A stretch of 64,000 nt of DNA from Bacteroides sp. Its GTDB lineage: Bacteria > Bacteroidota > Bacteroidia > Bacteroidales > Muribaculaceae. Shown piece after piece: positions 1,706 through 51,792 of this stretch; position 1 is the first letter of the stretch; each line of letters begins with the position of its first letter. Under the pieces are notes generated by a model that was not told the DNA's origin, made no database searches, and saw only the letters and a program-made list of their open reading frames with translations. The position numbers and the translations under genes are program-made. The DNA lies in assembly GCA_014801585.1 (NCBI GenBank), contig JAAVDX010000014.1, forward strand, positions 53,571 through 117,570. The letters are read 5' to 3'.

Positions 1706-1757
1706 TAAGTAATAAGCGCTTTGCGCTAAGTAATAAGTAATAAGTAGTAAGTAATAA
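1706..1757 (+). repeat. Hairpin plus AAGTAAT heptad array, copy A
   Basis: A 5-bp-stem hairpin (AGCGC-TTT-GCGCT, 1715-1727) is followed by four 7-bp units: AAGTAAT, AAGTAAT, AAGTAGT, AAGTAAT. One further heptad-like unit lies left of the hairpin. The 41 bp at 1715-1755 are identical to 23482-23522. It lies between the helicase stop and the subtilase start. Confidence 0.85.
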
Positions 1758-10875: not shown

Positions 10876-10881
10876 CAGTGA

Positions 10882-10948
10882 GTTTTTCATGGTATTAGAT
10901 TTTAAGGTTAACAGAAGATTGGTTGTCGAGATGACAATCAATTTTTTT
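10882..10948 (+). ncRNA. Candidate small RNA of about 67 nt (promoter to terminator)
   Basis: The start is inferred from the -7 box at 10868-10875. The end is a Rho-independent terminator: stem 10918-10927 with 10933-10942 (ATTGGTTGTC / GACAATCAAT, one G-U pair), a five-base loop, then seven Ts (10942-10948). The 35 bases before the stem (with CATGGTATTAGATTTTAAGG) contain no useful reading frame. I have an unverified impression of similar sequence in other Bacteroidales. It could instead be a leader or a terminated decoy, and I claim no function. Confidence 0.5.
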
Positions 10949-11104
10949 ATGCCCCTACTTCAACATCCATATTCATTGTTGCTTAAAGCCTAACATTCTA
11001 AACCTCAAGGCATATTATTTTGAGGATTTAAGTATACTGCAATAAGTTTAGGATAAAGATTTAAAATTAGTTTGTATTGGAAATATAGGTCTACATAGTT
11101 CGAC

Positions 11105-11797: not shown

Positions 11798-12658
11798 ATG
11801 GATCTTCAAGTCACAATACAGGGGGTTGCGGGGTGTTTTCATGACGCTGCAGCCCGCGAATTTTTCTCTATCCACGCTCCGCATATAAATGTGGAGCCGT
11901 TGCCGTGTGAGTCATTTCCGGCAATGTTCAATGCTCTTGCCGATGATCATCAGCTTGTCGGGATAATGGCTATCGAAAACACGATTGCAGGCGCCCTTCT
12001 CCAAAATCACGAACTTCTGCGCAAAAGTAATCTGCAGATAATCGGCGAGCATAAGAAACGTATTTCCCATTCCATTGCCGCACTTCCGGGCGCAACGTTA
12101 GAATCGGTGAAGGCTGTAATGTCTCACCCTATGGCCCTTATGCAGTGTGACGAATTTCTCAATCGCCACTCTCATATCAAATCTATTGAATGGTTTGATA
12201 CGGCCGGGGCAGCTCGCGATATATCCGAAGGGGAACTAACAAATCGTGCCGCTATCTGTCCGGCGCTCGCGGCAAAACTCTACGGACTTGAAATTTTAGA
12301 GAACGAAATCGAAACTAACAAACGGAATTTCACCCGTTTCCTCGTGCTTGCCCATGAGGAGCGAATTCCGTCATTGTTACTTCCGAAGGAACGTATAAAT
12401 AAAGCATCGATAGTATTCTCCCTACCCCACTCTCAAGGGGCCCTATCCAAAATCCTTACTATACTCTCTTTCTATGACATGAATCTGACCAAGATACAGT
12501 CAATGCCGATTCTCGGCCGGGAGTGGGAATATCGATTTTATGTAGATCTTACTTTCGATTCGCTCGAACGCTACCACCAAGCTATCACTGCCATTCGTCC
12601 GCTTCTCGGTGAATTCAAATCACTCGGGGAGTTTGCAGAATGCTCAATGGAAATTTGA
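11798..12658 (+). CDS. pheA: Prephenate dehydratase with ACT domain
   Basis: Turns prephenate into phenylpyruvate, the committed step to phenylalanine. The catalytic domain spans about residues 5-185 and includes MAIENTIAGALLQNHELL and the active-site Thr in NFTRFLVL. An ACT domain (about 205-280; SIVFSLPHSQGALSKILTIL) should give phenylalanine feedback. The usual ESRP-type motif at the ligand site reads QSMP (LTKIQSMPILGREWEYRFYVD region). There is no chorismate mutase domain; that activity is fused to the DAHP synthase two genes down. The stop codon lies inside a perfect hairpin followed by heptad repeats. Confidence 0.93.
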   Translation: MDLQVTIQGVAGCFHDAAAREFFSIHAPHINVEPLPCESFPAMFNALADDHQLVGIMAIENTIAGALLQNHELLRKSNLQIIGEHKKRISHSIAALPGATLESVKAVMSHPMALMQCDEFLNRHSHIKSIEWFDTAGAARDISEGELTNRAAICPALAAKLYGLEILENEIETNKRNFTRFLVLAHEERIPSLLLPKERINKASIVFSLPHSQGALSKILTILSFYDMNLTKIQSMPILGREWEYRFYVDLTFDSLERYHQAITAIRPLLGEFKSLGEFAECSMEI

Positions 12659-12700
12659 ACAAATTTCCATTGAAGTAATAAGTAATAGGTAATAAGTAAT
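12644..12700 (+). repeat. Hairpin over the pheA stop codon plus AAGTAAT heptad array
   Basis: A 14-bp perfect inverted repeat (TCAATGGAAATTTG / CAAATTTCCATTGA) with a two-base loop spans 12644-12673 and contains the pheA stop. It is followed by AAGTAAT, AAGTAAT, AGGTAAT, AAGTAAT (12673-12700). As in copies A and C, the third heptad is the variant one. Confidence 0.8.
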
Positions 12701-12740
12701 AGGAAGTTAGGAGATACTTTTTAATGCCAAATATTTAGAG

Positions 12741-13910
12741 ATGAAAAAGATACGCCCTGCCGACAGGCTCAACGATATAAAGGAATATTATTTTTCGCGT
12801 AAATTGCAGGAGGTGGCTGACCTTAATGCTAAAGGGATGGATATTATCTCACTTGGCGTGGGAGGGCCGGATCGTCCGCCTCATGAAGATGTGATCCGCG
12901 AGCTGTGTGAGACTGCGTCGCAGCCTGATACTCACGGGTATCAGATGACCAAAGGGATACCGGCTCTGCGCGATGCTTACGCCGATTTCTATAAACGAGC
13001 ATACGGGGTTGATCTCAATCCCGCATCGGAGATTCTCCCTCTTATCGGATCGAAAGAGGGTATAACTCATATCTCTCTCGCCTTTCTGAATCCGGGCGAC
13101 GGCGTATTAGTGCCGAATCCAGGATATCCGACCTATACGTCAGTTTCACGCATCGTAGGAGCAGAGATTTTCACTTATGATCTTACTGCTGAGAATGGAT
13201 GGATGCCCGATTTTGAAGCCTTGGAGCGACTGCCGTTGGAGAAAATCCGACTGATGTGGGTCAACTATCCCCACATGCCGACCGGAACACCTGCAACAGA
13301 GGAGCTATATCAGAACCTTATTGACTTCGGGCGTCGCCACGGGATTGTCATAGTACACGATAATCCTTATAGTTTTATTCTCAACCCCGAGCCACATAGT
13401 ATTCTTGAGATTGAGGGAGCGAAGGATGTAGCGATAGAGATGAATTCACTATCGAAGAGTCATAACATGCCGGGATGGCGAATGGCGATGTGTGCATCGA
13501 ATCCACAGTTTATCTCATGGATACTGAAAGTGAAATCCAACGTAGACTCCGGGCAGTATCTGCCGATGATGAAGGGGGCAATTAAGGCACTTTCACTCGG
13601 CAAGGACTGGATCGATGAGGTAAATAGAGTATATGCTTCACGTCGCAAGATTGCGGAAGAGATAATGATTGCTCTTAACTGCACGTTTGATCCGAAGCAG
13701 CAAGGTCTGTTCCTTTGGGGCAGAATTCCTGAGGATATCAAAGATGTCGAGGAATTTACGGATCATATACTTTACTATGCGCGAGTATTCCTGACTCCGG
13801 GATTTATTTTCGGAAGCAATGGCGATCGCTATATCCGTATCTCCCTATGTGCGCCTGAAGAGAAACTTTCTGAGGCGCTCAGGCGCGTAGAGGCGCTGAG
13901 CGCCAAGTAA
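12741..13910 (+). CDS. PLP-dependent aminotransferase, class I/II (probable aromatic aminotransferase)
   Basis: A 389-residue fold-type I aminotransferase. The PLP lysine is K239 in NSLSKSHNMPGWRMAM, the cofactor-binding motif is PNPGYPTY, and the carboxylate-binding Arg is in YIRISLC near the C-terminus. It resembles the LL-diaminopimelate/aspartate aminotransferase group, but its place between prephenate dehydratase and DAHP synthase-chorismate mutase points to transamination of phenylpyruvate or hydroxyphenylpyruvate. Bacteroidales commonly hold this gene in that position. The gene has a 3' peculiarity: its last codons are part of a hairpin (GGCGC-TGA-GCGCC) and its TAA is the first stop in a heptad repeat array. 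Confidence 0.87.
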   Translation: MKKIRPADRLNDIKEYYFSRKLQEVADLNAKGMDIISLGVGGPDRPPHEDVIRELCETASQPDTHGYQMTKGIPALRDAYADFYKRAYGVDLNPASEILPLIGSKEGITHISLAFLNPGDGVLVPNPGYPTYTSVSRIVGAEIFTYDLTAENGWMPDFEALERLPLEKIRLMWVNYPHMPTGTPATEELYQNLIDFGRRHGIVIVHDNPYSFILNPEPHSILEIEGAKDVAIEMNSLSKSHNMPGWRMAMCASNPQFISWILKVKSNVDSGQYLPMMKGAIKALSLGKDWIDEVNRVYASRRKIAEEIMIALNCTFDPKQQGLFLWGRIPEDIKDVEEFTDHILYYARVFLTPGFIFGSNGDRYIRISLCAPEEKLSEALRRVEALSAK

Positions 13911-13990
13911 TAAGTAATAGGCGCTGAGCTCCAAGTAATAAGTAATAGGAGCTGGGCTCCAAGTAATAAGTAATAAGTAGTAAGTAATAA
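13892..13990 (+). repeat. Triple hairpin-heptad array at the aminotransferase 3' end, copy B
   Basis: Three units follow each other: GGCGCTGAGCGCC plus two AAGTAAT heptads; GGCGCTGAGCTCC plus two heptads; GGAGCTGGGCTCC plus AAGTAAT, AAGTAAT, AAGTAGT, AAGTAAT. The first and third GC-rich parts are perfect 5-bp hairpins; the second has the left arm of the first and the right arm of the third. The aminotransferase stop TAA (13908-13910) is inside the first heptad. Confidence 0.85.
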
Positions 13991-14084
13991 GAGCTGATTT
14001 AAAGGTTGACCTTACGGAACTTGTGGGCCTATTATTAACTCGACAGATCAGCTCAATTCATAACGATTAATATATCAACCATAT

Positions 14085-15164
14085 ATGAAAGATTTAAAAC
14101 CATTGTTTCCGGAACTTGAAGAAACGGGGCGTCCGCTGATTATCGCCGGACCCTGCTCGGCCGAGACCCGCGAACAGACTCTCGATACAGCCCGACAGTT
14201 GGCGGATTATGGTGTGAAGATTTTCCGTGCCGGAATTTGGAAACCGCGTACCAAACCCGGAGGATTTGAAGGGATCGGCACCCCGGGGCTCGAATGGCTC
14301 AAAGAGGTAAAGGAACAGACCGGTATGCTGACAGCCTGCGAAGTGGCAACCCGTAATCACGTGACGGAAGCGCTCGAAGCAGGTGTAGATCTTCTTTGGA
14401 TCGGTGCGCGCACATCAGCTAATCCCTTTGCAATGCAGGAGATTGCCGACACGCTGCAAGAACTCAATGTCGACGTTCCGGTACTGGTAAAGAATCCTGT
14501 CAATCCGGATCTTGAACTTTGGATCGGAGCTATGCAACGTATCTACAATGCCGGAATCCGGCGTCTGGGAGCTATCCACCGTGGCTTCTCCGTATATGGT
14601 AAACACCTTTATAGAAATGTGCCGCAATGGCATATCCCCATTGAATTACGCCTGCGCTTCCCCAATATGCCGATTATCGTAGATCCGTCGCATATCGGAG
14701 GTAAGCGCGAACTGATCGCGCCACTTTCGCAACAGGCTCTCGACATGGGATTTAATGGTCTGATAATAGAGAGTCATTGCGATCCGGATGCGGCCTGGAG
14801 CGATGCCAAACAACAGCTGACGCCGGAAGTGCTCAATTTTATACTCCACACGCTTGTCATGCGCTCGGATAAAGAAGTAACAGAGAATCTCACACTTCTT
14901 CGCCAGCAAATCGACCGTATCGACAACGAACTTCTTGAGATTCTGGCAAAACGAATGGAGGTGTCAAGAGAGATTGGAAGATATAAGAAACTTCACCGGA
15001 TGCCTGTCGTCCAAGCCAATCGCTATAACGACGTTATTGCCACTCGTGTTGAGGCCGGAAAGGCTATGCAGATGGATAAGGATTTCATGAAGACAATCCT
15101 TCTCGCTATACACGATGAGAGTGTGCGCCAGCAGATAGAAATCATCAACGATCGCAACGTCTGA
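14085..15164 (+). CDS. Bifunctional DAHP synthase / chorismate mutase
   Basis: Links the first shikimate step to the branch-point step in one 359-residue chain. Residues 1-255 are a type I-beta DAHP synthase (KDO8P synthase-like) with IIAGPCSAETREQ, KIFRAGIWKPRTKPGGFEG, LVKNPVNPD and VDPSHIGGKR. Residues 265-355 are an AroQ-type chorismate mutase (LLRQQIDRIDNELLEILAKR, REIGRYKKLH, LLAIHDESVRQQ). The C-terminal mutase can also act as the feedback sensor in such fusions. It closes the phe/tyr cluster; the tyrA that often follows in relatives is absent, and a HipA-like gene begins 16 bases after the stop. Confidence 0.93.
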   Translation: MKDLKPLFPELEETGRPLIIAGPCSAETREQTLDTARQLADYGVKIFRAGIWKPRTKPGGFEGIGTPGLEWLKEVKEQTGMLTACEVATRNHVTEALEAGVDLLWIGARTSANPFAMQEIADTLQELNVDVPVLVKNPVNPDLELWIGAMQRIYNAGIRRLGAIHRGFSVYGKHLYRNVPQWHIPIELRLRFPNMPIIVDPSHIGGKRELIAPLSQQALDMGFNGLIIESHCDPDAAWSDAKQQLTPEVLNFILHTLVMRSDKEVTENLTLLRQQIDRIDNELLEILAKRMEVSREIGRYKKLHRMPVVQANRYNDVIATRVEAGKAMQMDKDFMKTILLAIHDESVRQQIEIINDRNV

Positions 15165-15180
15165 ACAAATCATTCTTCCT

Positions 15181-16035
15181 ATGGAAATACGCGAAGAGGA
15201 ACTGACCCGTTATATTCTTCCCTTGCGTGAAGGGGGCAGCCTTCCTTTACTTGGGGAGGCTTCCGACGGCTTTCGCTATGTAGTCAAGATGCGCGGGGCA
15301 GGTCATGGCAAAAAGGCTCTTATATCGGAGCTAATAGGCGGGATGGTGGCTAAAGCATTTAAATTCCGCACTCCGGAGCTCGTGTTGCTTCATCTTGATG
15401 AAGCGTTCGGTATCACCGAACCGGATGAGGAGGTGCAGGAACTTTTGCGTAAGTCGGAAGGCCTTAACCTTGGGCTGCATTTTCTCGACGGAGCAGCGAC
15501 GTTTGATCCGGCCGTTAATACGGTAGATCCGCTTATGGCCTCGAAAATAGTGTGGCTTGACGCTTTCCTGACTAATGTCGACCGCACCCGACTCAATCCA
15601 AATATGATGATATGGCATGGAGAGTTGTGGCTCATAGACAACGGTGCTTCGCTATATTTTCATCATTCCGGGAAAGACCCTGATCAGGCGGCTTTGGATC
15701 CCTTCCCGTATATCAGTCGGCATGCTTTACTTCCGGCCGCTTCACAATTAGAAGAAGCTGACAAACTGATGAGGCAGGCAATCACCCCGAGGACTTTGGA
15801 AAGAGTCGTTGATCTCGTGCCGGAAGAATGGCTTACAGATGAAGTGACGCTGACAGAACTTTCATCATTGTCGGGCTCAGGCGCCTCGACTATCGGGGAG
15901 AGGCCGGCAGAGGAAAGTTCAACCCCCGCACAACGCCGGGCCGGATACAAGAAATTCCTTACCAAGCGATTGGCTGAAAGCAGAATCTTCACAGACGAGG
16001 CAATACGTCAGCGCAATTTATTATCACTCAAATAA
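15181..16035 (+). CDS. HipA-like kinase domain protein
   Basis: A 284-residue protein of the short HipA-like kinase family (HipA_2 type), which lacks the N-terminal half of true HipA toxins. The kinase-like core shows WLDAFLTNVDRTRLNPNMM (D134, N139) and LWLIDNGASLYFH (D153), matching the catalytic loop and metal site of HipA relatives. FRYVVKMRG near residue 35 may hold the ATP lysine. A DUF3037 gene follows 15 bases downstream; this pair is a recurrent two-gene unit in bacteria whose role is not known to me. Toxin activity should not be assumed. Confidence 0.8.
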   Translation: MEIREEELTRYILPLREGGSLPLLGEASDGFRYVVKMRGAGHGKKALISELIGGMVAKAFKFRTPELVLLHLDEAFGITEPDEEVQELLRKSEGLNLGLHFLDGAATFDPAVNTVDPLMASKIVWLDAFLTNVDRTRLNPNMMIWHGELWLIDNGASLYFHHSGKDPDQAALDPFPYISRHALLPAASQLEEADKLMRQAITPRTLERVVDLVPEEWLTDEVTLTELSSLSGSGASTIGERPAEESSTPAQRRAGYKKFLTKRLAESRIFTDEAIRQRNLLSLK

Positions 16036-16050
16036 GTCATTTCACCTGAT

Positions 16051-16557
16051 ATGAAAGATCATATTGTAACAGGGCTCGAGCTCTCTTGCATCTGCTGTGA
16101 TAATGATGATGTAGCATTGGTTGACACATCGGCAACCCGGGACAACAAACCCGAACCGAAGCCGTGTCTGATATATGAGTATTGTGTATTGCGATACGTT
16201 GCGGATGTAGAGCGTGAGGAATTTGTGAATGTAGGGTTGATGATGATGTGTAAGCGTCGGCGCTGGATGGAAGTCAGATTGCATATTGACGAAGAGCGTC
16301 TGCGCTGCATCTTCCACAGATCCGATCCGGAAAGGCTTCGTAAGCAGTTGGGTGTATTTATCCGTAAGGATGTGCCATCGGCTGATCTTCCTGTGGAGGA
16401 ACGCTATCGCTGGCTCGCAGCGGTAAAGAGTGCGATAATCCAGACCTCCCCTACCCATCCCGGCATAATCCGCTATCCTGACGATGCGAGTGGGGCTGAC
16501 CAGACCCGACTTCTTTCCGAGCGTTTCGACACACTATTTAACCGCCTTATACTCTGA
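16051..16557 (+). CDS. DUF3037 family protein
   Basis: A 168-residue protein whose core (CLIYEYCVLRYVADVEREE, FVNVGLMMMCKRRRW, HIDEERLRCIF) matches DUF3037, a small family usually coded next to HipA_2-type kinases, as here. The first 35 residues are poorly conserved and contain CICC. Function is unknown; partner, substrate or inhibitor of the kinase are all possible. The start at 16051 is the first ATG after the kinase stop. Confidence 0.78.
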   Translation: MKDHIVTGLELSCICCDNDDVALVDTSATRDNKPEPKPCLIYEYCVLRYVADVEREEFVNVGLMMMCKRRRWMEVRLHIDEERLRCIFHRSDPERLRKQLGVFIRKDVPSADLPVEERYRWLAAVKSAIIQTSPTHPGIIRYPDDASGADQTRLLSERFDTLFNRLIL

Positions 16558-16582
16558 TTCACGCACGCTTGACAGTACTAAT

Positions 16583-16613
16583 TTTGTCCTTTCACAGAAA
16601 TTAGTTATATTTG
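16583..16613 (+). promoter_or_regulatory. Promoter for the AAA-ATPase/PDDEXK gene
   Basis: TTTG (16583-16586), 19 bases, TATATTTG (16606-16613): full consensus. The ATG follows 17 bases after the box, which excludes the longer reading that begins at 16484. Confidence 0.75.
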
Positions 16614-16630
16614 CGGAAAATCAAAGATTT

Positions 16631-18190
16631 ATGGCAACTGAGAAATACCCTATCGGGATACAGACTTTTGAGAAACTGATTGAAGGAGGTTATTCTTACG
16701 TTGACAAGACACGATTCGTGGAAAAACTTGTCAAGAATGACGGATATTACTTCCTAAGCCGTCCGCGGCGCTTCGGGAAAAGTCTTCTTTTGTCAACTTT
16801 GCATTCATTTTTTGATGGCAAGCGCCATCTGTTTAAAGATCTATATATTGATTCTGCAGATATCGACTGGATCCCTTCACCGGTATTGCATTTTGATCTT
16901 AATACTGAAAATTTCAAGAATGAGGACGGGTTGTCAAATCTTCTTGACCGACTTCTTGAAGATTATGAGGAGAAATATTCTGTTGAGAATAAAGCCACGA
17001 CATTAGCCGGACGTCTCTCTCGATTGATTAAGCAAATATTTGATCAGACAGGGCGCAAAGTTGTTATCCTCGTTGATGAATATGATAAACCATTATTAGG
17101 CATTGAAGAGAATCCCGAACTTTTTGAAAAGAATCAATCCATTCTAAAAGCCTTTTTCGGGAATCTGAAATCAATGGATCCCTACATAAGATTCGCATTG
17201 CTTACGGGCGTGGCGAGATTCAATAATGTAAGTATATTCAGCGACCTTAATAATCTCAACGATATATCCTTGATAGAAGAATATGGTGAGATCTGCGGAT
17301 GGACTGAAAAAGAACTGCTATCTACCTTTCGCGATGGCATCAACCGCTTGGCAAAAAAGCGTAATGAAACCTTCGAAGCGACCACAAGCGCATTACGGGA
17401 TTATTATGACGGATACCTCTTTTGCGATGAAGGGAGTCGCCTTTATAATCCTTATAGCGTCTTAAAATCATTATATGCTCAAAAAATTGAGCCTTATTGG
17501 TTTGAGAGCGGTTCGCCAACTTTTTTAGTGAATCGAGTGAAGGCAACGGGTATAGTTTTGCCGAATCTTTCGGAAGAGTATAGTTCAAGAGATGAACTGA
17601 TAGAAGTCGGATTGAATACATCGTCGCCGGTCGGATTAATGGTACAAACGGGCTACCTTACTATAGATCATTATGACAATACGCTGCAGATGTATAAACT
17701 TCGTTTTCCAAACAAAGAGGTAGAAATAGGTTTTGCGAAACAACTGCTTCCTCTCTATATTCCTGAAAACGGAGTTTCCTCCCGAGCTTTTTCGCTGAAG
17801 AATTTCCGATTAGATTTAGTCAATGGCAATCCGGAGAAGTTTATGGAGCGTCTGCAGATACTTTGTAAGATTCCGGGGTATGAATCTCATTCGGAAGATA
17901 ATTATCGTAATATTGTATGGTTGCTTTGTACTCTTTGTGATACAGATACAATCTCCGAACATCATTCCTATAAAGGGAGGAGTGACTTGGAAGTATTCAC
18001 AGGCAACTATATTTATGTATTCGAATTCAAATATAATGGGAAGTTATCCAGAGCTATGGCCCAGCTTACTGAGAAAGACTATGCCGGGCGTTATGCTTTA
18101 GATCATCGCCAAGTCTATTTAATCGCTGCTAATTTCTCTACGAACGGTCCACTGCAAGGGCTGTCTGAATGGGAGATTAAAAGGTTATGA
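16631..18190 (+). CDS. AAA-ATPase-like protein with C-terminal PDDEXK nuclease-like domain (DUF1703)
   Basis: A 519-residue member of the AAA-ATPase_like/PDDEXK_9 family that is expanded in Bacteroidales. The P-loop is FLSRPRRFGKSLLLSTL (about residues 40-56) and the Walker B is VVILVDEYDKPLLG. The C-terminal part holds D...ExK nuclease-like residues (GRSDLEVF and YVFEFKYNG). Its function is unproven; defence or mobile-element roles are often suspected. The gene is more AT-rich than its neighbours, has its own consensus promoter and is followed by a perfect 66-bp palindrome and a tRNA, so horizontal transfer is plausible. The start MATEKYPIGIQTF is typical of the family. Confidence 0.85.
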   Translation: MATEKYPIGIQTFEKLIEGGYSYVDKTRFVEKLVKNDGYYFLSRPRRFGKSLLLSTLHSFFDGKRHLFKDLYIDSADIDWIPSPVLHFDLNTENFKNEDGLSNLLDRLLEDYEEKYSVENKATTLAGRLSRLIKQIFDQTGRKVVILVDEYDKPLLGIEENPELFEKNQSILKAFFGNLKSMDPYIRFALLTGVARFNNVSIFSDLNNLNDISLIEEYGEICGWTEKELLSTFRDGINRLAKKRNETFEATTSALRDYYDGYLFCDEGSRLYNPYSVLKSLYAQKIEPYWFESGSPTFLVNRVKATGIVLPNLSEEYSSRDELIEVGLNTSSPVGLMVQTGYLTIDHYDNTLQMYKLRFPNKEVEIGFAKQLLPLYIPENGVSSRAFSLKNFRLDLVNGNPEKFMERLQILCKIPGYESHSEDNYRNIVWLLCTLCDTDTISEHHSYKGRSDLEVFTGNYIYVFEFKYNGKLSRAMAQLTEKDYAGRYALDHRQVYLIAANFSTNGPLQGLSEWEIKRL

Positions 18191-18210
18191 CCAATATCGG
18201 CGAATCTATA

Positions 18211-18276
18211 TCGTGCGCACAAACTGAAACAGGAGAATCTCAATTGAGATTCTCCTGTTTCAGTTTGTGCGCACGA
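18211..18276. repeat. Perfect 66-bp palindrome overlapping the tRNA-Leu 3' end
   Basis: Every base from 18211 to 18243 pairs with 18276 down to 18244 with no spacer, giving 33-bp arms. The right arm contains the last bases of the tRNA (CGTGCGCA on the tRNA strand). There is no T-run on either side. Confidence 0.92.
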
Positions 18277-18349
18277 AGGGACTCGAACCCCCACGTCGTT
18301 AGACACTAGATCCTAAGTCTAGCGCGGCTACCAATTACGCCACGTGCGC
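18268..18349 (-). tRNA. tRNA-Leu (anticodon UAG)
   Basis: Full cloverleaf on the minus strand, 82 nt. The acceptor is GCGCACG with CGTGCGC and discriminator A. The D-loop contains AATTGGTAG. The anticodon stem is CTAGA / TCTAG with loop CTTAGGA, so the anticodon is TAG (Leu, CUA codons). The variable arm is long (class II) and the T-arm is GTGGG-GGTTCGAGT-CCC-like. CCA is not encoded. The trailer is one arm of the 66-bp palindrome. Confidence 0.93.
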
Positions 18350-18463
18350 TCTTTGTAAATGCAAAGTTAATAAAAAATTTTCATATTCGGCTCTTTTCTC
18401 AGATTTTTTTTGTCGGATTTATATTCTTTTCTATCGCGATACGCCTTTTTTAACCCTTTTTTC

Positions 18464-18494
18464 TTTGATTCCAACACTATTTTTATTATATTTG
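18464..18494 (+). promoter_or_regulatory. Promoter for parC
   Basis: TTTG (18464-18467), 19 bases, TATATTTG (18487-18494): full consensus. The start would be near 18501, leaving a leader of about 150 bases to the ATG at 18653. Confidence 0.75.
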
Positions 18495-18652
18495 CATTGA
18501 TTAGGAATCTTACGCCCGAAGTAAGAACCGATACACAAAACTATATGGTTAGGGTTTGGTTCTATACCTCCCCCTGCGAAAGTTCCAAATCTCTCATTCC
18601 ACAAACTACCCTCATCACGTCTGCCAAAAAGCAGACAACCCGGCATACACAA

Positions 18653-21505
18653 ATGGCAGAAGAACTCATCACCGACGATAATCTCGACGAAAACCTCAGC
18701 AACAATCTCGACGACACCAACGATAGCAACCTCAGCGGAAATTCCGATGAGGCTGACATTGCCGCTATAGATAAAACTACGGAAGATACCACTCCCAACT
18801 CATCCGATTCCGACGAATCCGACGAGGACGGTATGAATCAAGAAGATTCCGATCCCTCCCCCACCGACTCTACTGAAGAGTCAAAGCCGAAGTATAATGT
18901 CCCGGGAATGGGGAAAGATCGTCGTACGCTGCTTTCCGGTATGTTCAAGGATTGGTTTCTGGAATACGCATCTTACGTCATTCTGGAGCGCGCAGTGCCA
19001 CATATCGATGACGGTCTGAAACCGGTGCAGCGACGCATACTCCACTCCATGCAGACTCTGGACGACGGGAGATTCAATAAGGTAGCCAATATTGTAGGTA
19101 ATACCATGCAATATCATCCTCACGGCGATGCGTCGATCGGGGATGCACTCGTACAGCTCGGGCAGAAAGATCTGCTGATCGATACTCAGGGAAACTGGGG
19201 TAACATACTGACCGGAGACGGAGCTGCCGCAGGGCGTTACATCGAGGCCAGACTCTCAGAGTTTGCTCTCGAAAGCGTCTTCTCTCCTGACATTACTGAA
19301 TGGACACCCTCTTACGATGGGCGTAAGAAAGAACCTGTCACGCTTCCCGTGAAATTTCCCCTGCTCCTTGCTCAGGGAGTTGAGGGAATCGCAGTCGGGC
19401 TATCGTCGAAGATACTACCCCACAATTTCAATGAGATATGCGACGCTGCAATCGACTTCCTTGAAGGGAGAGAATTCCGCCTGCTTCCTGACTTCCAGAC
19501 GGGAGGTCTGCTTGATGCTTCACGCTACAACGACGGGGCACGTGGGGGAAGCGTAAAAGTGCGCGCAAAGATTGAGAAAATCGACAGCAAGACTCTTGCT
19601 ATCACGGAGATTCCCTACGGCAAGACTACTACGACACTTATCTCTTCCATACTTTCAGCTATGGAAAAGGGTAAGATAAAGGTGAAGCATGTCGATGACA
19701 ACACGTCGGCCACTGCGGAAATACTTGTGCATCTGACTCCCGGCACATCCTCGGATAAAGCAATTGATGCGCTCTACGCATTTACCGACTGCGAAGTCAG
19801 CATCTCCCCCATATGCTGCGTAATCCGCGACCGCAAACCGCACTTCCTTACGGTCAGTGATGTGCTGCGCCATAGCGTCAACCGCACGCGGGATATGCTT
19901 CTCGAGGAACTTAATATACGTCTTGGCGAAAACCGCGAGGCAATGCTCTTCGCGTCGCTCGAAAAGATATTCATCGAAAACCGGATGTATAAAGACCGGC
20001 AGATAGAGCAGGCTCCGGATATGGATTCGGCAGTAGCCCGGATAGACGAACTGATGGAGCCCTTCAAGCCACAATTCTTCCGCCCGCTTACGCGCGATGA
20101 CATCATGCGTCTATGGGAAATACGCATGGGACGTATCCTGAAGTTCAATTCTGAAAAAGCCAATGAGAAGATAGCACGTCTGCAGGGAGAAATCGAACAG
20201 ATCGCATACGATATCGAACATATCACGGAATTCACCGTGAAATGGTATGCCCATCTTAAGGAGAAATACGGAGCACATTATCCGCGTCGGACTACACTGC
20301 GCGGTTTTGACTCTATTGAAGCAACAAAAGTGGCCGAAGCCAACAAACGCCTTTTCTTCGATAAGGAAGGAGGCTTTATCGGTATCGGTCTTAAAGAGGG
20401 AGAATTTAAATTCACATGTTCCGACATCGATGATATCCTTATCATATATCGCGACGGAACGTATAAGATTGTCAGAGTGCAGGACAAACTCTTCATCGGC
20501 AAGAAAGTGCAACATATCGGACTCTTTAAGAAAGATGACAAACGCACGATCTACAACCTTATATATCGCAATGGCAAGGAAGGGGAATATTATAAGAAAC
20601 GCTTCTTTATCAAGGGACTTACCCGTGAGAAGATATATAATATGACTAAAGGTGCGGATGGCTCGAAGATTGAGTATCTCTCAGTCAATCCCAACGGAGA
20701 GGCAGAGACGGTAAAGGTTACGCTGACGGGCAAACCGAATGCGACCGGTCGACCGCCCCGCAACCGCGAACTCTACGTGGATTTCGCAGATCTGGCATTG
20801 AAAGGAAAGGACTCTCTGGGTAATCTTGTCACAAAATTTCAGGTAAAATCCGTCACTCTTGAAAAGCGGGGAGGATCTACGCTGGGAGGACGCGAAGTAT
20901 GGTTTGACCGCGATGTACTACGTCTTAACTACGATGGACGCGGGGAGAGTCTCGGAATTTTCCAGGGGGACGATCAGGTACTTATCATCACTACCGACGG
21001 ACAATTCTATACCACCTCATACTCCGATGAAAACCATTATGACGATAATATCCTGCGTATCGAGAAATTCAATCCCAACAAAGTATGGACTGCGGCTCTC
21101 TTCGACGCATCGCTGGGTTATCCCTACCTGAAACGATTTAACTTTGAACCTACGGCCCGTCCGCAGCGATATGTAGGCTCGGATGAGAAATCACAGTTAC
21201 TGCTGCTGACAGATACGGTCTATCCCCGTCTGGAGGTAAAATATGGTGGTAACGATGCAGTGAGACCACCGTTGGAAATTGACGCGGAGGAATTTATCGC
21301 AGTGAAGAGTTTCAAGGCCAAGGGTAAGCGTATCACTACATTTACACTCGACACTATCACCGAACTCGAACCGACCCGTTTCCCCGAACCCGAGCCGGAA
21401 CCGCAGGTAGAAGAGGCAGAGATCATTGAGGAAGAGAATCAGCCGGCAGGGCCGACAGTGATTCAAGGCGATCTTTTTGATTTCGATAACGAGACTGCGG
21501 AATGA
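18653..21505 (+). CDS. parC: DNA topoisomerase IV subunit A
   Basis: DNA cutting and rejoining subunit of topoisomerase IV, which unlinks daughter chromosomes. 950 residues from MAEELITDDN; the longer upstream reading crosses the promoter. Residues 1-80 are an acidic Ser/Asp/Glu-rich extension. The breakage domain then starts (LSGMFKDWFLEYASYVILERAVPHI region) and contains PVQRRILHSM, GDAS and the active-site Tyr in AAGRYIEARLSEF. A coiled-coil/tower region and beta-pinwheel C-terminal domain follow. The acidic tail ends with QGDLFDFDNE, which resembles a sliding-clamp binding motif. parE is 35 kb away. The next gene overlaps the stop by four bases (ATGA). Confidence 0.92.
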   Translation: MAEELITDDNLDENLSNNLDDTNDSNLSGNSDEADIAAIDKTTEDTTPNSSDSDESDEDGMNQEDSDPSPTDSTEESKPKYNVPGMGKDRRTLLSGMFKDWFLEYASYVILERAVPHIDDGLKPVQRRILHSMQTLDDGRFNKVANIVGNTMQYHPHGDASIGDALVQLGQKDLLIDTQGNWGNILTGDGAAAGRYIEARLSEFALESVFSPDITEWTPSYDGRKKEPVTLPVKFPLLLAQGVEGIAVGLSSKILPHNFNEICDAAIDFLEGREFRLLPDFQTGGLLDASRYNDGARGGSVKVRAKIEKIDSKTLAITEIPYGKTTTTLISSILSAMEKGKIKVKHVDDNTSATAEILVHLTPGTSSDKAIDALYAFTDCEVSISPICCVIRDRKPHFLTVSDVLRHSVNRTRDMLLEELNIRLGENREAMLFASLEKIFIENRMYKDRQIEQAPDMDSAVARIDELMEPFKPQFFRPLTRDDIMRLWEIRMGRILKFNSEKANEKIARLQGEIEQIAYDIEHITEFTVKWYAHLKEKYGAHYPRRTTLRGFDSIEATKVAEANKRLFFDKEGGFIGIGLKEGEFKFTCSDIDDILIIYRDGTYKIVRVQDKLFIGKKVQHIGLFKKDDKRTIYNLIYRNGKEGEYYKKRFFIKGLTREKIYNMTKGADGSKIEYLSVNPNGEAETVKVTLTGKPNATGRPPRNRELYVDFADLALKGKDSLGNLVTKFQVKSVTLEKRGGSTLGGREVWFDRDVLRLNYDGRGESLGIFQGDDQVLIITTDGQFYTTSYSDENHYDDNILRIEKFNPNKVWTAALFDASLGYPYLKRFNFEPTARPQRYVGSDEKSQLLLLTDTVYPRLEVKYGGNDAVRPPLEIDAEEFIAVKSFKAKGKRITTFTLDTITELEPTRFPEPEPEPQVEEAEIIEEENQPAGPTVIQGDLFDFDNETAE

Positions 21506-22365
21506 AATCCCTGACAGTTGTTATCCGCAAAATTATCATCGCGGTGGCAGTCGGCATGATTGCCGGTATGTCGGTTGAAGCCCATGACACGACAGACTCC
21601 ATCAGAAATACTTCACGCCCTGTAACCTCCACTTATTCCATCGAAACAGGCAAACAATGGAGCCGGTCCACATATCTTTCCCCCTACTATTATAAGGGGA
21701 TTGACCTTGCTATCGCCGGCAACTGGACTAAGCGGATGCCATTCTCCCCAAAACATGCCGGGATGACCTTTGACACCCGAATCGCACTTTGGCCCCGTCT
21801 GCTAAATCCCGGAGGGAACGCATCGATGCAGGGATTCGATATCAATTTCTTCTGGGGGATGCAGGCACTCTGGGAACTGCCATATTCACTGACAGCAGGA
21901 GTAGGAGGCGGCCCGGAGTTTGACGGGGGTGTGCTGATGCTTCTGCGCAACAGCAACAACCCCGTTGCAGTCAATCTATCAGCGGATTTAAGTCTGGCCG
22001 CAACGCTTGAATGGAAAGGGAGAATCGGGAAATTGCCCATCATGGCTCTCTGGAATCTGAGAATGCCACTTGCAGGAGCATTTTTCATGCCCGGCTATGG
22101 CGAGACCTATTACGAAATCTACCTTGGCAATCATTCCGGACTTGCACACGCAGGATGGCCGGGGAATCACCTCCGCATAAATTCAAAATTAGCAGTTAGA
22201 CTTGATTTCGGAAGGACAGCGATGGAGATAGGCTATCGAATGATCACCGATCGGATGAGCGCCAATAATCTCGTATCGCGCCAGCTGACTCACGCCTTTA
22301 CCATCGGCGTGATACCCCACGGTCTGGGACTTCGGAAAACATCAAAACCCTCCCGGGATATTTAG
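21502..22365 (+). CDS. DUF3316-like outer membrane beta-barrel protein
   Basis: A 287-residue exported protein with signal peptide (KSLTVVIRKIIIAVAVGMIAGMSVEA). The mature part has alternating beta-strand patterns, with SRSTYLSPYYYKGIDLAIAG near the start and a final strand THAFTIGVIPHGLGL. This fits the DUF3316 group of Bacteroidales barrel proteins; the family call is from memory. Its start overlaps parC by four bases, so the two are translationally coupled and continue into the S41 protease gene five bases downstream. Function is unknown. Confidence 0.6.
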   Translation: MKSLTVVIRKIIIAVAVGMIAGMSVEAHDTTDSIRNTSRPVTSTYSIETGKQWSRSTYLSPYYYKGIDLAIAGNWTKRMPFSPKHAGMTFDTRIALWPRLLNPGGNASMQGFDINFFWGMQALWELPYSLTAGVGGGPEFDGGVLMLLRNSNNPVAVNLSADLSLAATLEWKGRIGKLPIMALWNLRMPLAGAFFMPGYGETYYEIYLGNHSGLAHAGWPGNHLRINSKLAVRLDFGRTAMEIGYRMITDRMSANNLVSRQLTHAFTIGVIPHGLGLRKTSKPSRDI

Positions 22366-22370
22366 AGAGT

Positions 22371-23507
22371 ATGGTTACTTTTAAGATGAAAAGTAAAAAG
22401 CGATTTACAGGCTCAACCATCGGACGGCAAATGCTATGCCGCGCAAAGCGATTGACAATTCAGCAGATAGGATTTCTTTTGCTTACATTTATCTCACTCG
22501 AATTAACAGGGTGTGCCGAGGATACGGACTATCCCGATGACCCCTTTGGTAATTTCGATGCATTGGCAGAAATCATAGACTCCCGCTATTGCTTCTTTGC
22601 CGACAAGGATATTGACTGGGAAGAGGTAGCGAAGCGCTATCGCGCACGTATAACACCCGAGACGCGCCAGCTTGAGCTCTTCAATATCTGTTCCGAAATG
22701 CTCGATGAATTGAAAGACGGCCACGTAAATCTATCATCGCGCTTCAATACGAGTTATTATAGGGCATGGTGGAGCGATTATCCCCAGGATTTTAATCTCC
22801 GCACACTTCAGGAATATTATTTAAAGTTTGATTACGGATCAACCTCAGGAATGCTCTATAAATATTTTCCTGAAGAGAAAGCAGGCTACATATACTATCC
22901 ATCCTTTTCATCCGGTATATCAGAAGTTAATCTTGACTATGTGCTTGCCCAGCTCTATGATGCCGAAAGTCTTATCATAGATATCCGCGACAACGGAGGA
23001 GGATTGCTGACAAACATAGACGTACTGATCGGACGCCTTATAGAAGGTGAAATTCCGGGAGGGACAATCACTCATAAGACCGGGCCCGGGCATGACGATT
23101 TTTCCAAGCCCTATCCTTTCACGTATAAATCCGCACCTGAATACAGGATACATTTTCTTCACCGGCCGGTATATATTCTTACCAATCGTTCATGCTATAG
23201 TGCGGCCAACGCTTTCACGGCAGTTGCAAAATCACTGCCGAATGTAAAGATAATCGGAGCGCGGACCGGAGGCGGGGGCGGATTGCCCTTTTCATCTGAA
23301 CTACCTAACGGCTGGAGCATACGTTTTTCGGCCTCACCTCTCTATGGTCCGGATGGTGAGATTACCGAATTCGGCATTGATCCGTCGGAGGGCTATGAAT
23401 GTCATTCACCTGAAAAAGAACTCGCCCAAGGACATGATGAAATCCTTGAGCGAGCACTTGAGCTCTGCCGAGAAAGCAATGAGCGCTTTGCGCTAAGTAA
23501 TAAGTAA
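22371..23507 (+). CDS. S41 family peptidase, lipoprotein
   Basis: A 378-residue C-terminal-processing type serine protease held in the envelope by a lipid anchor: the signal peptide (QQIGFLLLTFISLELTGC) ends with a lipobox. The S41 core shows SLIIDIRDNGGGLLTNIDVL and the nucleophile Ser in NRSCYSAANAF (S277), then KIIGARTGGGGGLPFSSELPNG. No clear PDZ domain is seen, unlike the Ctp protease at 58.9 kb. Start could also be M6 or M21. The last residues (RFALSNK) and the TAA are encoded by the hairpin-heptad repeat, so the natural C-terminus has probably been replaced or extended by the repeat. Confidence 0.87.
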   Translation: MVTFKMKSKKRFTGSTIGRQMLCRAKRLTIQQIGFLLLTFISLELTGCAEDTDYPDDPFGNFDALAEIIDSRYCFFADKDIDWEEVAKRYRARITPETRQLELFNICSEMLDELKDGHVNLSSRFNTSYYRAWWSDYPQDFNLRTLQEYYLKFDYGSTSGMLYKYFPEEKAGYIYYPSFSSGISEVNLDYVLAQLYDAESLIIDIRDNGGGLLTNIDVLIGRLIEGEIPGGTITHKTGPGHDDFSKPYPFTYKSAPEYRIHFLHRPVYILTNRSCYSAANAFTAVAKSLPNVKIIGARTGGGGGLPFSSELPNGWSIRFSASPLYGPDGEITEFGIDPSEGYECHSPEKELAQGHDEILERALELCRESNERFALSNK

Positions 23508-23522
23508 TAAGTAGTAAGTAAT
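23482..23522 (+). repeat. Hairpin plus AAGTAAT heptad array, copy C
   Basis: AGCGC-TTT-GCGCT (23482-23494) plus AAGTAAT, AAGTAAT, AAGTAGT, AAGTAAT. All 41 bases equal 1715-1755. The S41 peptidase stop TAA (23505-23507) lies in the second heptad. Confidence 0.9.
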
Positions 23523-23609
23523 AAATTCTGCTAAGAACAGAGATCTTACTAACCTTATCAATAATTACTTAAGACATTTCAATAATAGCTTGCGAAGTGG
23601 AGGAGATGG

Positions 23610-23846
23610 TTATTCCTCAGCGTATGAGAGTACGGTGGGGGATTTCACATCAACGCCATATTCCTGTGCAAACTTAAGAATAGCACGAGCCAGTTTTGGC
23701 TTGAGGTCGTCGGGACAATAACGGAAATAAGCTTCAGCGGCCCGGACATGGGCTGCGTCGGGCATGGGGTATTCTCTGCGTTCGGGCAAGCCGAAAACAC
23801 TGTCGGGAAGTTCACGGCGTTCCTCAGTATCTAATACGTCATTCAT
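23610..23846 (-). CDS. Small conserved protein, DUF6582-like
   Basis: A 78-residue soluble protein starting at MNDVLDTEERR; the 25 codons upstream are AT-rich and unlike coding sequence. The core LPDSVFGLPERREYPMPDAAHVRAAEAYFRYC resembles the short DUF6582-type domain (LPDSxFALPxxRxYPI) that is frequent in phage proteins, but here it stands alone. It has an all-helical look in the second half (DDLKPKLARAILKFAQEYG). Function is unknown. It is divergent from aspS, with about 175 bases between the starts. Confidence 0.7.
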   Translation of the reverse strand: MNDVLDTEERRELPDSVFGLPERREYPMPDAAHVRAAEAYFRYCPDDLKPKLARAILKFAQEYGVDVKSPTVLSYAEE

Positions 23847-23920
23847 AGTAAAAATAATGATTAAAGAGTTAATAATTCTAAAGTTATAACATTCAAAAAG
23901 AGGGATAGGTTGCAAATTCA

Positions 23921-23952
23921 TTTGGAGGAATCGAAAATTTTTCTTAATTTTG
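23921..23952 (+). promoter_or_regulatory. Promoter for aspS
   Basis: TTTG (23921-23924), 20 bases, TAATTTTG (23945-23952): full consensus. The leader would be about 65 bases. Confidence 0.75.
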
Positions 23953-24022
23953 CTTGTTATTAAACCCTGAGGTTAAGTAACGATAACCCTCAGGGCGGAA
24001 TAAAGACGTCTTAATATAACCT

Positions 24023-25786
24023 ATGTACAGAGATAAAACCTGCGGCGAGTTGCGTCTCGCCGACTGTGGCTCCGTCGTGCGTCTGGCAGGATGGGTGCAG
24101 CGTGTGCGCAAAATGGGCGCTATGACATTCATCGATCTTCGCGATCGATATGGAATCACTCAAGTCCTTTTCAATCAGGAGGTAAATCCTGAGCTTTGCG
24201 ATATTGCAAACTCTCTCGGACGCGAGTATGTGGTGGAAATTACGGGTCGTGTAGAAGAACGCACATCGAAGAATCCGAATCTTCCTACCGGCGACATCGA
24301 AATCTACGCAACCGACGTTAAGATCCTTAACAAGTCGGAAATTCCCCCGTTCACCATCGAAGACAATACCGACGGCGGCGACGATCTCCGTATGAAGTAC
24401 CGTTATCTCGACCTTCGTCGTCCCTGCGTCAAGAAGAATCTTGAGCTTCGCCACAAAATGGCCTTCGAGATCCGACGCTATCTCGACTCAAAAGGGTTTC
24501 TCGAGATCGAGACTCCTATTCTCGTGAAGTCAACTCCGGAAGGTGCGCGCGACTTCGTAGTCCCATCCCGTATGAATCCGGGAGAATTCTATGCACTTCC
24601 GCAGTCGCCGCAGATATTCAAACAGCTACTTATGGTCAGCGGCTACGACCGCTATTTCCAGATTGCGAAGTGCTTCCGCGATGAAGACCTTCGTGCAGAC
24701 CGCCAGCCGGAATTCACTCAGATTGACTGCGAGATGAGTTTCGTAGAGCAGGAAGATGTCATCGAGATGTTTGAAGGTCTCGTAAAACATATTTTCAAAT
24801 ATACCAAGGGAATCGATTTCACTGAGCCTTTCCCCCGCATGACATGGGCAGACGCAATGTGTCTCTACGGTAGTGACAAACCGGACATCCGCTTCGGAAT
24901 GCCATTCGTAGAACTGACCGACCTTGCACAAGGCAAGGGGTTCAGCGTAGCCGACGATGCGGAAATAGTAGTAGGTATCTGCGCTCCGGACTGCGCCTCA
25001 TATACCCGCAAGCAACTCGACCAGCTCACAGACTTCGTGAAGCGTCCGCAGGTAGGTGCGAAGGGTATGATATGGGTGAAATTTGAGGCTGACGGCAGCG
25101 TGAAGAGTTCCGTCGGCAAATTCTACTCAGAGGAGCAGCTAAAGGAATGGGGAGCCCGCGCAGAGGCTAAGCCCGGTGACCTTCTTCTCGTGCTGACAGG
25201 CGAGACAATGAAGACCCGTAAGCAACTTTGCGAGTTGCGCCTCGAAATGGGCAATCGCCTCGGACTTCGCGACAAGAATGTATTCGCCCCCCTTTGGGTT
25301 GTAGACTTCCCTCTCTTCGAATGGGATGAGGAGACTCAGCGTTATTATGCAATGCACCATCCCTTCACATCGCCCAATCCTGAGGATATCCCCTTGCTCA
25401 AAACCGACACGGGCAATGTCCGTGCCACGGCATACGACATCATCGTAAACGGCACAGAGCTCGGTGGCGGATCAATCCGAATTCATGATTCCGAACTTCA
25501 AGACGAGATGTTTGAGCTTCTCGGCTTCACTCCGGAGCGTGCGCATGAACAATTCGGCTTCCTTATGGATGCCTTCAAATATGGCGCACCCCCTCACGGA
25601 GGTCTGGCACTCGGATTTGACCGCTTCGTGTCGATCCTCGCGGGTCAGGACACAATCCGCGACGTCATCGCTTTCCCGAAGAATAACTCCGGCCGCGACG
25701 TGATGAACGAATCGCCCTCTCCCATCGACCAGGCACAGCTCGACGAACTTCAGCTTGCTCTGGCTCCCGCAGAGGAGAAGAAATGA
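24023..25786 (+). CDS. aspS: Aspartate--tRNA ligase
   Basis: Class II synthetase of 587 residues that charges tRNA-Asp. The N-terminal OB fold ([20 protein letters not shown]) binds the anticodon. Class II motifs follow: motif 2 around [18 protein letters not shown] and motif 3 [15 protein letters not shown]. The bacterial-type GAD insertion lies between (about 290-410). Length is normal for the bacterial form. Codon use is strongly biased, as expected for a highly expressed gene. Confidence 0.96.
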
Positions 25787-25852
25787 ATGTCTTCGGAGCG
25801 AATATCGCTCTCTTGATTCCAAACTCTGAATGGGTCATAATTCTGAATAAGA

Positions 25853-26638
25853 ATGATAAAAGTCAAAGATATAGCTAAAGCGATTGAGGATTTCGCCCCT
25901 AAGAATCTTCAGGAGTCGTATGACAACAGCGGATTACAGGTAGGCGACCCCGAGATGGCGGTCAACGGAGTACTGCTCTGTCTTGACGTGACGGAGGAGA
26001 TACTTGCTGAAGCGCGTCGTCGACAATGCAATATGATCGTCAGCCATCATCCTCTTCTTTTTGCGGGATTGAAGCAGATCGTCGGTCAGACTCCTACTGA
26101 GCGTATCGTTGCCGAGGCTCTGCTCCACAACATCGCTATCTATTCTGCTCACACTAATCTTGATTCTACGCGCGACGGAGTGAGCTATGAGATAGCTCAT
26201 TCGCTGCATATCTCAAACCTACATCCATTGCGCCCGAGCGCACCGGAAGCAGATACGGGATTGGGTATCATCGGTGAAATCTCCCCCACTCCTAAACTGG
26301 AGTTTCTGCGCAAGGTAAAGGAGACACTTAAGATTGAGCATCTCCGCTATTCGGCTCAGTCGCCACAGATTGTGGTGAGAAAGGTTGCCGTCTGCGGAGG
26401 GTCGGGAGCATCCATGATTCGTGAGGCTATGTCTGCAGGCGCAGACGCTCTGCTGACCGGAGACCTGAAATATCATGACTATACATCTTACGGCTATGCT
26501 ATTCTGTTGGCTGACATCGGTCATTATGAAAGCGAACTGTGCACGAAGAAGCTCTTCTCGCGAATCATTCGGGAAGCATGGCCGGAGTGTGTGATATATT
26601 TTGCGGAATCTGAAAGCAATCCCATTGCTTATGTCTGA
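25853..26638 (+). CDS. Nif3-like dinuclear metal centre protein
   Basis: A 261-residue member of the Nif3/YbgI family. Metal ligands are visible in NMIVSHHPLLF (about residues 61-71), YSAHTNLDS (about 101-109) and LADIGHYESE near the C-terminus. This is the short form without the PII-like insertion found in longer members. The family makes toroidal hexamers; a GTP cyclohydrolase-like activity has been claimed for some members, but the general role is unclear. Neighbouring the zinc-ribbon coiled-coil gene is a conserved arrangement in many bacteria. Confidence 0.9.
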   Translation: MIKVKDIAKAIEDFAPKNLQESYDNSGLQVGDPEMAVNGVLLCLDVTEEILAEARRRQCNMIVSHHPLLFAGLKQIVGQTPTERIVAEALLHNIAIYSAHTNLDSTRDGVSYEIAHSLHISNLHPLRPSAPEADTGLGIIGEISPTPKLEFLRKVKETLKIEHLRYSAQSPQIVVRKVAVCGGSGASMIREAMSAGADALLTGDLKYHDYTSYGYAILLADIGHYESELCTKKLFSRIIREAWPECVIYFAESESNPIAYV

Positions 26639-26713
26639 CCTAAATAGTGGCAGACAGAGCACTTCCAACGAGTAAAAATCGAAAGAAAAAATCTGAAATA
26701 CCAAATAAATAAA

Positions 26714-27532: not shown

Positions 27533-27565
27533 ACCGAATATCATTCCCTACTTCGAAGGGAACTA

Positions 27566-27605
27566 AAAGTTAAGGGGAGGCTCATTCGGGCCTCCCCTTA
27601 ACTTT
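27566..27605. terminator. Bidirectional terminator between convergent genes
   Basis: A 16-bp perfect inverted repeat (AAAGTTAAGGGGAGGC / GCCTCCCCTTAACTTT) with loop TCATTCGG lies between the zinc-ribbon gene (plus) and the 27.6-kb gene (minus). Both flanks end in A/T runs, so it can stop both transcripts. Confidence 0.85.
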
Positions 27606-27646
27606 ACTGACGAAGGGCATCGATTTTACTGACGAAGGGCGTCGAT
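27603..27646. repeat. 22-bp tandem duplication over a stop codon
   Basis: TTTACTGACGAAGGGC followed by (A/G)TCGAT occurs at 27603-27624 and 27625-27646 with one mismatch. On the minus strand each copy reads IDALRQ-stop, so the true stop and a second relic stop lie in a row. Confidence 0.85.
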
Positions 27647-28753: not shown

Positions 28754-28770
28754 ATACCTCACATCAAGAT

Positions 28771-29427: not shown

Positions 29428-29453
29428 GAATTCTTGCTTTTAAAGTAGCAAGC

Positions 29454-29476
29454 AATAAATAAGTAATAAGTTATAA
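29454..29476 (+). repeat. Degenerate AAGTAAT heptads downstream of queC
   Basis: AATAAAT, AAGTAAT, AAGTTAT in a row, preceded by a weak hairpin (TTGCT / AGCAA). The sequence after it (GTTGAAGTTGCGAAACTT) resembles that next to the queE heptads. Confidence 0.5.
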
Positions 29477-32232: not shown

Positions 32233-32282
32233 TTTAAGCTTCGCAAGTTGCAACTTGCGAAGCTTAAAAAGTAATAAGTAAT
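32233..32282. repeat. 36-bp perfect palindrome plus two AAGTAAT heptads upstream of queE
   Basis: Positions 32233-32268 form a perfect palindrome with 18-bp arms and no spacer (centre TTG|CAA). Two AAGTAAT units follow on the plus strand (32269-32282). It sits 10 bases upstream of the queE start, in the queD-queE intergenic region. Confidence 0.85.
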
Positions 32283-36115: not shown

Positions 36116-36144
36116 ATTACTTTATAACTCATTATTTATTACTT
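36116..36144 (-). repeat. Degenerate heptads in reverse orientation between pta and ackA
   Basis: On the minus strand: AAGTAAT, AAATAAT, an eight-base GAGTTATA, AAGTAAT. This is the only copy on the minus strand and the least regular. Confidence 0.45.
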
Positions 36145-36162
36145 TATTTTTCAACGAAAAAT

Positions 36163-51731: not shown

Positions 51732-51792
51732 AAAAATCTTAAAGTAGTAAGCTAAGCGCTTACGCAATATTATCGTAATTTTTGAGTTTATT

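Follow-up and report, generated by a model that had tools for sequence, protein, structure and literature searches.

Dispersed AAGTAAT heptad arrays often bordered by hairpins that, at checkable gene ends, are backwards copies of the neighboring DNA

The 64-kb stretch of DNA analyzed here, referred to as the window, contains a series of places where AAGTAAT heptads lie next to short hairpins (Table 1), which raises the question of how so small a repeat came to be dispersed and what brings a hairpin to one side of it. Across the genome, many of the repeats start at a hairpin. Where gene ends allowed a check, this hairpin is a backwards copy of the neighboring DNA, suggesting either a copying mistake that keeps recurring or a mobile element of very small size. 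The AAGTAAT places listed in an initial annotation of the window all exist, those at 29454 and 36116 being degenerate arrays and that at 51742 a single AAGTAGT, and the identity over 41 bases which it noted between 1715-1755 and 23482-23522 is likewise found. Its remark that the variant unit is the third heptad holds only locally: when the last clean block at each of the 70 sites described below is considered, AAGTAGT is the second of four heptads in 10 cases and the third of four in 4.

Table 1. Repeat features located in the 64-kb window
Feature	Position	Strand	Remarks
Single AAGTAAT	1707..1713	+	Ahead of hairpin
Core hairpin AGCGC-TTT-GCGCT	1715..1727	+	
Four heptads	1728..1755	+	AAGTAGT third
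Hairpin TCAATGGAAATTTG-aa-CAAATTTCCATTGA	12644..12673	+	At prephenate dehydratase end; left arm, final codons (S M E I) plus first stop-codon bases; right arm, its inverse
Four heptads	12673..12700	+	AGGTAAT third
Hairpin GGCGCT-g-AGCGCC	13892..13904	+	In final codons of aminotransferase ORF
Three heptad blocks, two GGCGC/GGAGC-type hairpins in between	13905..13988	+	First block provides the stop codon of the aminotransferase ORF
Core hairpin AGCGC-TTT-GCGCT	23482..23494	+	S41 peptidase ORF end
Four heptads	23495..23522	+	AAGTAGT third; S41 peptidase ORF stop inside array (23507)
Imperfect hairpin CTTGC..GCAAG	29433..29452	+	3' of queC
Degenerate heptads, then tail-like sequence	29454..29474	+	
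Palindrome, tail-type, TTTAAGCTTCGCAAGTTG-CAACTTGCGAAGCTTAAA	32233..32268	+	
Two heptads, then tail (GATTGCTTCGTAGGTTGAACTTGAGACTT)	32269..32282	+	
Degenerate reversed heptads	36116..36144	-	pta/ackA intergenic
Hairpin ATTTTTC-gtt-GAAAAAT	36146..36162	-	One base 5' of reversed heptads
Trace, one AAGTAGT	51742..51748	+	Directly 3' of long ORF

Abundance and anatomy of the arrays

The family is far from being restricted to a few copies, since AAGTAATAAGTAAT occurs 84 times exactly in the 2.23-Mb genome to which the window belongs and its reversed control 0 times, while the pattern AAGTANTAAGTANT has 173 matches genome-wide versus 1 for the control. We read 70 sites, the window included, in 355 kb of stretches picked for containing heptads; the AAGTANTAAGTANT matches listed were 100 of the 173, and sites built solely of variant heptads may be missing from this set. 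The heptads are arranged head to tail as 7-bp units in dispersed arrays which, according to crude ORFs, are mostly intergenic, and arrays of at least three of them have TAA stops in every reading frame. A tail resembling GCTTCGAAGGTTGAACTTGCGAAACTT (at least 17 of 27 bases matching) follows the heptads on their 3' side at 28 of the 70 sites, versus 4 of 2,000 random positions. Ten places, counted after 3 of 13 rows had been dropped as overlapping secondary matches, feature a composite of about 99 bp (92 to 106 bp), which begins with TTTAAGTTTCGCAAGTT (0 to 4 mismatches) and ends with the inverse of this start (0 to 6 mismatches in 21 bases). These terminal inverted repeats do not extend to the sites with unique hairpins. 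A direct repeat of 7 to 9 bases, judged by eye and without a control, flanks 2 of the 10 full composite copies, and there is no clear target duplication at the other 8. Pairs of repeat stretches above a cut of 88% share 88 to 97%, and at C15:59671 we observed by eye a nested case, with heptads within a stem.

Based on crude ORFs, 39 of the 70 sites have an upstream neighbor on the same strand as the heptads and 30 have one on the opposite strand, with none at the remaining site; the stop of this neighbor falls within the heptads at 9 sites, and the next same-strand ORF, at sites having one, starts at least 19 bases 3' of the array. GC skew is positive on the heptad strand at 48 of the 70 sites (P = 0.0025 assuming independence, which sites of one contig violate) and at 19 of the 23 sites with a local skew of 0.1 or more, the skew data being noisy.

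Hairpins adjoining the heptads on their 5' side

The description of most heptads as directly following a short hairpin holds over the 70 sites. A hairpin with a score of at least 6 adjoins the 5' edge at 45 of the 70 sites, versus 9 of 700 random positions, and one with a score of at least 12 at 33 sites, versus 1 of 700. The 3' edge has a hairpin at 1 of the 70 sites, and 12 sites are devoid of one even at a score of 5. The longest stems reach 36 perfect pairs, whereas short GGCGC-NNN-GCGCC forms are common among the weaker hairpins. The initial annotation had proposed a dispersed family in which a hairpin-plus-heptad unit was copied; the dispersed family and its hairpin-then-heptad order stand, and copying as a unit is borne out in part, by the composite and the tail. 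A single conserved hairpin is instead contradicted: a TTTAAGTTTCGCAAG-type stem recurs among the 43 stems with a score of at least 8, but 22 of these have no 8-mer in common with another stem, and the four stems that could be compared with relatives contain the end of the local gene together with its inverse.

A comparison with relatives was made for seven sites. Four of them were counted, on protein matches of at least 40% identity which reach to within 25 residues of the C terminus, since the left arms at C9:8785 and C9:11067 are non-coding and, at 13905, where the left arm lies in the ORF end, the C termini of the relatives could not be aligned. Heptads are present at none of the 30 relative junctions (13 genomes, with 12, 5, 6, and 7 relatives over the four sites), and an unrelated hairpin with a score of at least 8 is present at 2. 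The hairpin at the prephenate dehydratase end is missing in 12 of 12 relatives; the nearer ones have in common the C terminus (E/D)(F/Y)KSLGEYxEC..E(I/V) but not the residues S M at the start of the arm. At C32:32084, the left arm encodes RLINY, where relatives have RLINY, KFINY, and RFIGY, and at C32:35537 it encodes GELPPELE, where relatives have GEIPMELE, GEVPEELE, and GELPPELE; the hairpin at the latter site, with 3 mismatches, scores 5.7 in the junction comparison and 8.7 in the site survey. The arm at C9:5921 encodes ESDIAERK, which is conserved only partly. The agreement of the left arm with coding sequence of relatives is thus strong at the two C32 sites and partial at C9:5921 and prephenate dehydratase. 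Since the arm aligns with this coding sequence and both hairpin and heptads are absent there, the left arm appears to be ancestral and the right arm new at these four sites, the relatives being distant (42 to 91% protein identity across the compared part). At this distance, the hairpin may also have been made before the heptads arrived. Another repeat, TAGCTAAGT-like, occupies the 152 bases between genes 3' of prephenate dehydratase in contig C143 of genome G089.

Presence and absence at the same site, as called for by the initial annotation, were found in one pair. Two sites of genome G060 were queried in the window genome (G000), G097, and G089; one had no clear orthologue, and the other led to contigs C1 and C26 of the window assembly, which are 97 to 98% identical on both sides of C1:201915. 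Hairpin and heptads are there in C1 and not in C26, with a gap of 106 bases, and the adjacent downstream sequence also differs. Both arms fall within the indel, which shows an inserted hairpin and no flank copy. The end of C1 and the start of C26 show 97 to 98% identity over about 9 kb, and the two contigs are likely strain variants, paralogous copies, or a region that the assembly contains twice.

Hairpins next to heptads also form a class of their own. According to a scan for scores of at least 12 in stretches of the window genome and in 47 stretches of relatives, a crude ORF has its stop codon within 13 of 38 hairpins next to heptads, 0 of the 25 other hairpins of the genome, and 0 of the 22 hairpins of relatives (13/38 versus 0/47; Fisher P = 7e-6), whereas a T/A tract accompanies 5 of 38, 14 of 25, and 11 of 22, respectively. 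It was thus not simply ordinary terminators that the heptads landed on. This bears on the hypothesis that the heptad-tail unit is a mobile element inserting at the 3' foot of pre-existing hairpins, which would account for heptads sitting exactly at hairpin feet and could draw on hairpins with a score of at least 14, which occur at 0 to 151 per Mb in the scanned stretches of relatives. Given the distinct class of the heptad hairpins and relatives that have no hairpin at the four tested sites, we deem such insertion rather unlikely.

The same counts concern the hypothesis that selection maintains the units in 3' untranslated regions as regulatory or terminator structures. Many units directly follow ORFs, and 13948-13960, 23482-23494, and 29433-29452 fit, on the opposite strand, a loosely defined terminator pattern with 24 matches in window positions 12501-32400, where 17.6 are expected. 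However, the stem plus T run of an intrinsic terminator is not what characterizes the heptad hairpins (T/A tract at 5/38, versus 25/47 of the others), 30 of the 70 sites have their upstream neighbor (crude ORFs) on the opposite strand, conservation in relatives is lacking at the four sites tested, and no Rfam family matches the repeat sites in the window or the four loci searched. Selected structures of this kind are accordingly improbable. An Rfam match to the BTncRNA_FopS sRNA (79 bits) is located at window positions 10880-10951.

Distribution of the heptad and of its hairpins

The heptad 14-mer was detected in 13 of 111 genomes of the genus, of which 10 have 1 to 3 copies, G060 has 9, G072 has 68, and the window genome has 84. 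Of 397 sampled genomes of the family, 25 contain it, and two from another genus reach 90 and 49 copies. Repeats of the reversed control TAATGAATAATGAA also exist in some genomes of the family, where it is therefore not neutral. Beyond the family, the 21-base heptad AAGTAATAAGTARTAAGTAAT was found in at least 113 database stretches, and 70 of the 80 titles among the matches listed are cyanobacterial, which overturns the earlier statement that cyanobacterial heptanucleotide repeats have other sequences; the heptad itself is not novel, occurring in cyanobacteria and others. Twelve viral-contig stretches also contain the 21-base pattern, while two exact composite patterns had 0 matches in viral contigs and one 121-base composite had no match in plasmid and phage sequences.

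Hairpins with a score of at least 6 adjoin the 5' edge at 6 of 24 sites in G072, 3 of 5 in G060, and 1 of 13 in further species of the genus, whereas in other genera of the family (five genomes, 20 stretches) they were found at 0 of 21 sites and, at the AAGTAATAAGTARTAAGTAAT database loci minus the G060 contig, at 3 of 128. Since 5' hairpins are so rare outside the lineage, the coupling of hairpin and heptads is lineage-bound and the heptad itself is not.

Candidate mechanisms and comparison with known repeats

The reading which we favor, tentatively and at somewhat less than an even chance, is that heptads are small dispersed elements whose 5' border grows hairpins via fold-back template switching. 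AAGTAAT arrays, often with the short conserved tail, would constitute a small dispersed repeat, partly in the form of the composite, and their insertion at gene ends would be tolerated because three or more heptads carry TAA in all three frames; a period of 7, which brings TAA into all three frames within three units, may explain why heptads persist there. As synthesis heads for the 5' edge of the heptads, the newly made strand would fold back on a short inverted repeat, which may be native, consist of a GGCGC core, or be supplied by the left end of the element itself, copy the preceding DNA in reverse over about 8 to 36 bases, and resume at the heptads, the product being flank, inverted flank, and heptads. 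Both the act of copying, fold-back template switching during replication, and the greater age of the heptads relative to the hairpins are inferred here from the anatomy of the sites. Template switching can yield perfect hairpins in a single event, according to an excerpt of PMC8794818, and is strand-biased in E. coli, according to an excerpt of PMC7202029.

The best clue for template switching comes from C1:52312 and C7:8781, where a hairpin of the element type is lengthened by flank which, among the stretches examined, is confined to its own two arms, and the inverse of the flank sits exactly between hairpin and heptads, as expected if the 3' arm of the hairpin had acted as a primer. At the four testable sites, furthermore, the new arm is the reverse complement of what distant relatives suggest to be the ancestral neighbor, and the GC-skew bias is weakly compatible with an effect of the replication strand. 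On the other side, heptads elsewhere do not provoke hairpins (3/128, 0/21, and 1/13 sites), so that a lineage-specific factor would be needed, which counts against template switching, as do the 12 of 70 sites devoid of a hairpin, and the exact resumption at the heptads without homology is not accounted for by this model. A loopless, perfect palindrome of 33 bp without heptads lies at window positions 18211-18276, with its right arm entering the 3' end of a tRNA-Leu gene (18267-18349, minus strand), and is perhaps another fold-back copy.

Another hypothesis is a dedicated insertion reaction, mediated by a reverse transcriptase, an HUH transposase, or similar, in which a nicked 3' end of the target snaps back, copies the flank, and jumps to a template of heptads and tail, the whole unit being made in one step. 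In its favor, inverted flank and heptads, inspected by eye, meet sharply and mostly have no base in common, a tail follows the heptads at 28 of 70 sites, a direct repeat (by eye, without control) flanks 2 of 10 full composite copies, and one composite lies 1.7 kb from the only Y1 transposase match of the genome, with heptads of G072 situated about 0.5 kb from a Y1 gene. Against it, an RVT_1 match is absent from the window genome, which is 80% complete, and over six genomes the reverse transcriptase search gave 0 in G000 and G097, 1 each in G060 and G072, 2 in G089, and 3 in G267, which lends no support to spread of the element by a reverse transcriptase. The Y1 gene is directly flanked by other palindromes, Y1 matches occur in 73 of 111 genomes of the genus versus heptads in only 13, and 8 of 10 full composites have no clear target duplication. 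A Y1 transposase (RAYT/IS200) as source of the element is thus unsupported, if still conceivable given the composite 1.7 kb from the gene and the heptads of G072, and we consider one-step insertion by a dedicated enzyme unlikely. A related process, snap-back copying of a nicked or broken 3' DNA end followed by templated addition of AAGTAAT and tail, seems to us quite unlikely as well; if it were true, such dedicated end extension would resemble healing of the telomerase or target-primed type and leave stop-codon-rich scars at gene borders. The Y1 (RAYT-like) ORF of the window genome, at C14:40002, about 11 to 14 kb before the window, is flanked by repeated CCGATGGCCGC and CCCCGCTACGCGGGG palindromes and has the composite 1.7 kb downstream, and in contig C46 of G072, GTAG-tagged GGACGCGATATATCGCGTCC palindromes are close by the RAYT-like ORF that heptads precede by about 0.5 kb.

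These palindromes invite comparison with REP/REPIN sequences and their RAYTs, which, in excerpts of PMC3116915 and PMC3733652, are likewise dispersed and extragenic; here, however, half of the stems are mutually unrelated despite the recurring TTTAAGTTTCGCAAG type, and the Y1 gene at C14:40002 has other palindromes on its flanks and not the same repeats. The composite, with its terminal inverted repeats at 10 places, is reminiscent of miniature inverted-repeat transposable elements (MITEs). A clear target duplication was noted for 2 of the 10 copies (by eye, without control), and a search for a parent transposase with the composite's ends, which covered Y1, found none. The hairpins have in common with template-switch or quasipalindrome mutations, as presented in excerpts of PMC8794818 and PMC7202029, that perfect hairpins arise from reverse-complement copying of neighboring sequence. 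What sets the present case apart is that the hairpins recur on one side of the heptads; we know of no template-switch mutation that strikes time and again at one flank of a dispersed tandem repeat.

Elhai is reported to have described, in 2008, cyanobacterial tandem heptamers (STRR) with embedded small dispersed repeats (SDR), and the small hairpins nested in tandem heptamers, here of the GGCGC type, resemble that arrangement; AAGTAAT is also cyanobacterial. Here, in contrast, 22 of 43 stems are unique by 8-mer and four contain a gene end and its inverse, and the AAGTAATAAGTARTAAGTAAT loci, mostly cyanobacterial among the matches listed, have a hairpin at the heptad edge at 3 of 128 sites. Heptamer repeats of bacteria have, to our knowledge, been on record for a long time, with no consensus on their mechanism. 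Since some of the present arrays hold an inverted copy of their neighbor, the copying can be followed base by base; its direction can be measured and, with strains, its rate put to the test. Neither the heptad 14-mer, a rotation of it, nor their reverse complements were found in the open-access literature searched, and the titles and abstract openings of the heptamer papers listed there do not describe flank-copied hairpins at heptamers.

TAACTGA direct repeats are reported, in an excerpt of MacGregor 2015 (PMC4679880), from Beggiatoaceae, cyanobacteria, and five Bacteroidetes, with no obvious mechanism of exchange. Like the AAGTAAT arrays, they are tandem heptamers which contain stops, are mostly intergenic, vary in 7-nt indel steps, and are patchy over distant phyla. 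They differ in the heptamer itself and in that the Beggiatoaceae copies lie mostly just upstream of start codons, which the AAGTAAT arrays do not, and flank-derived hairpins such as those seen here go unmentioned in that excerpt. Another stop-rich heptad, the TAATGAA of the reversed control, occurs in tandem in some members of the family (genomes G406, G418, G423, and G267).
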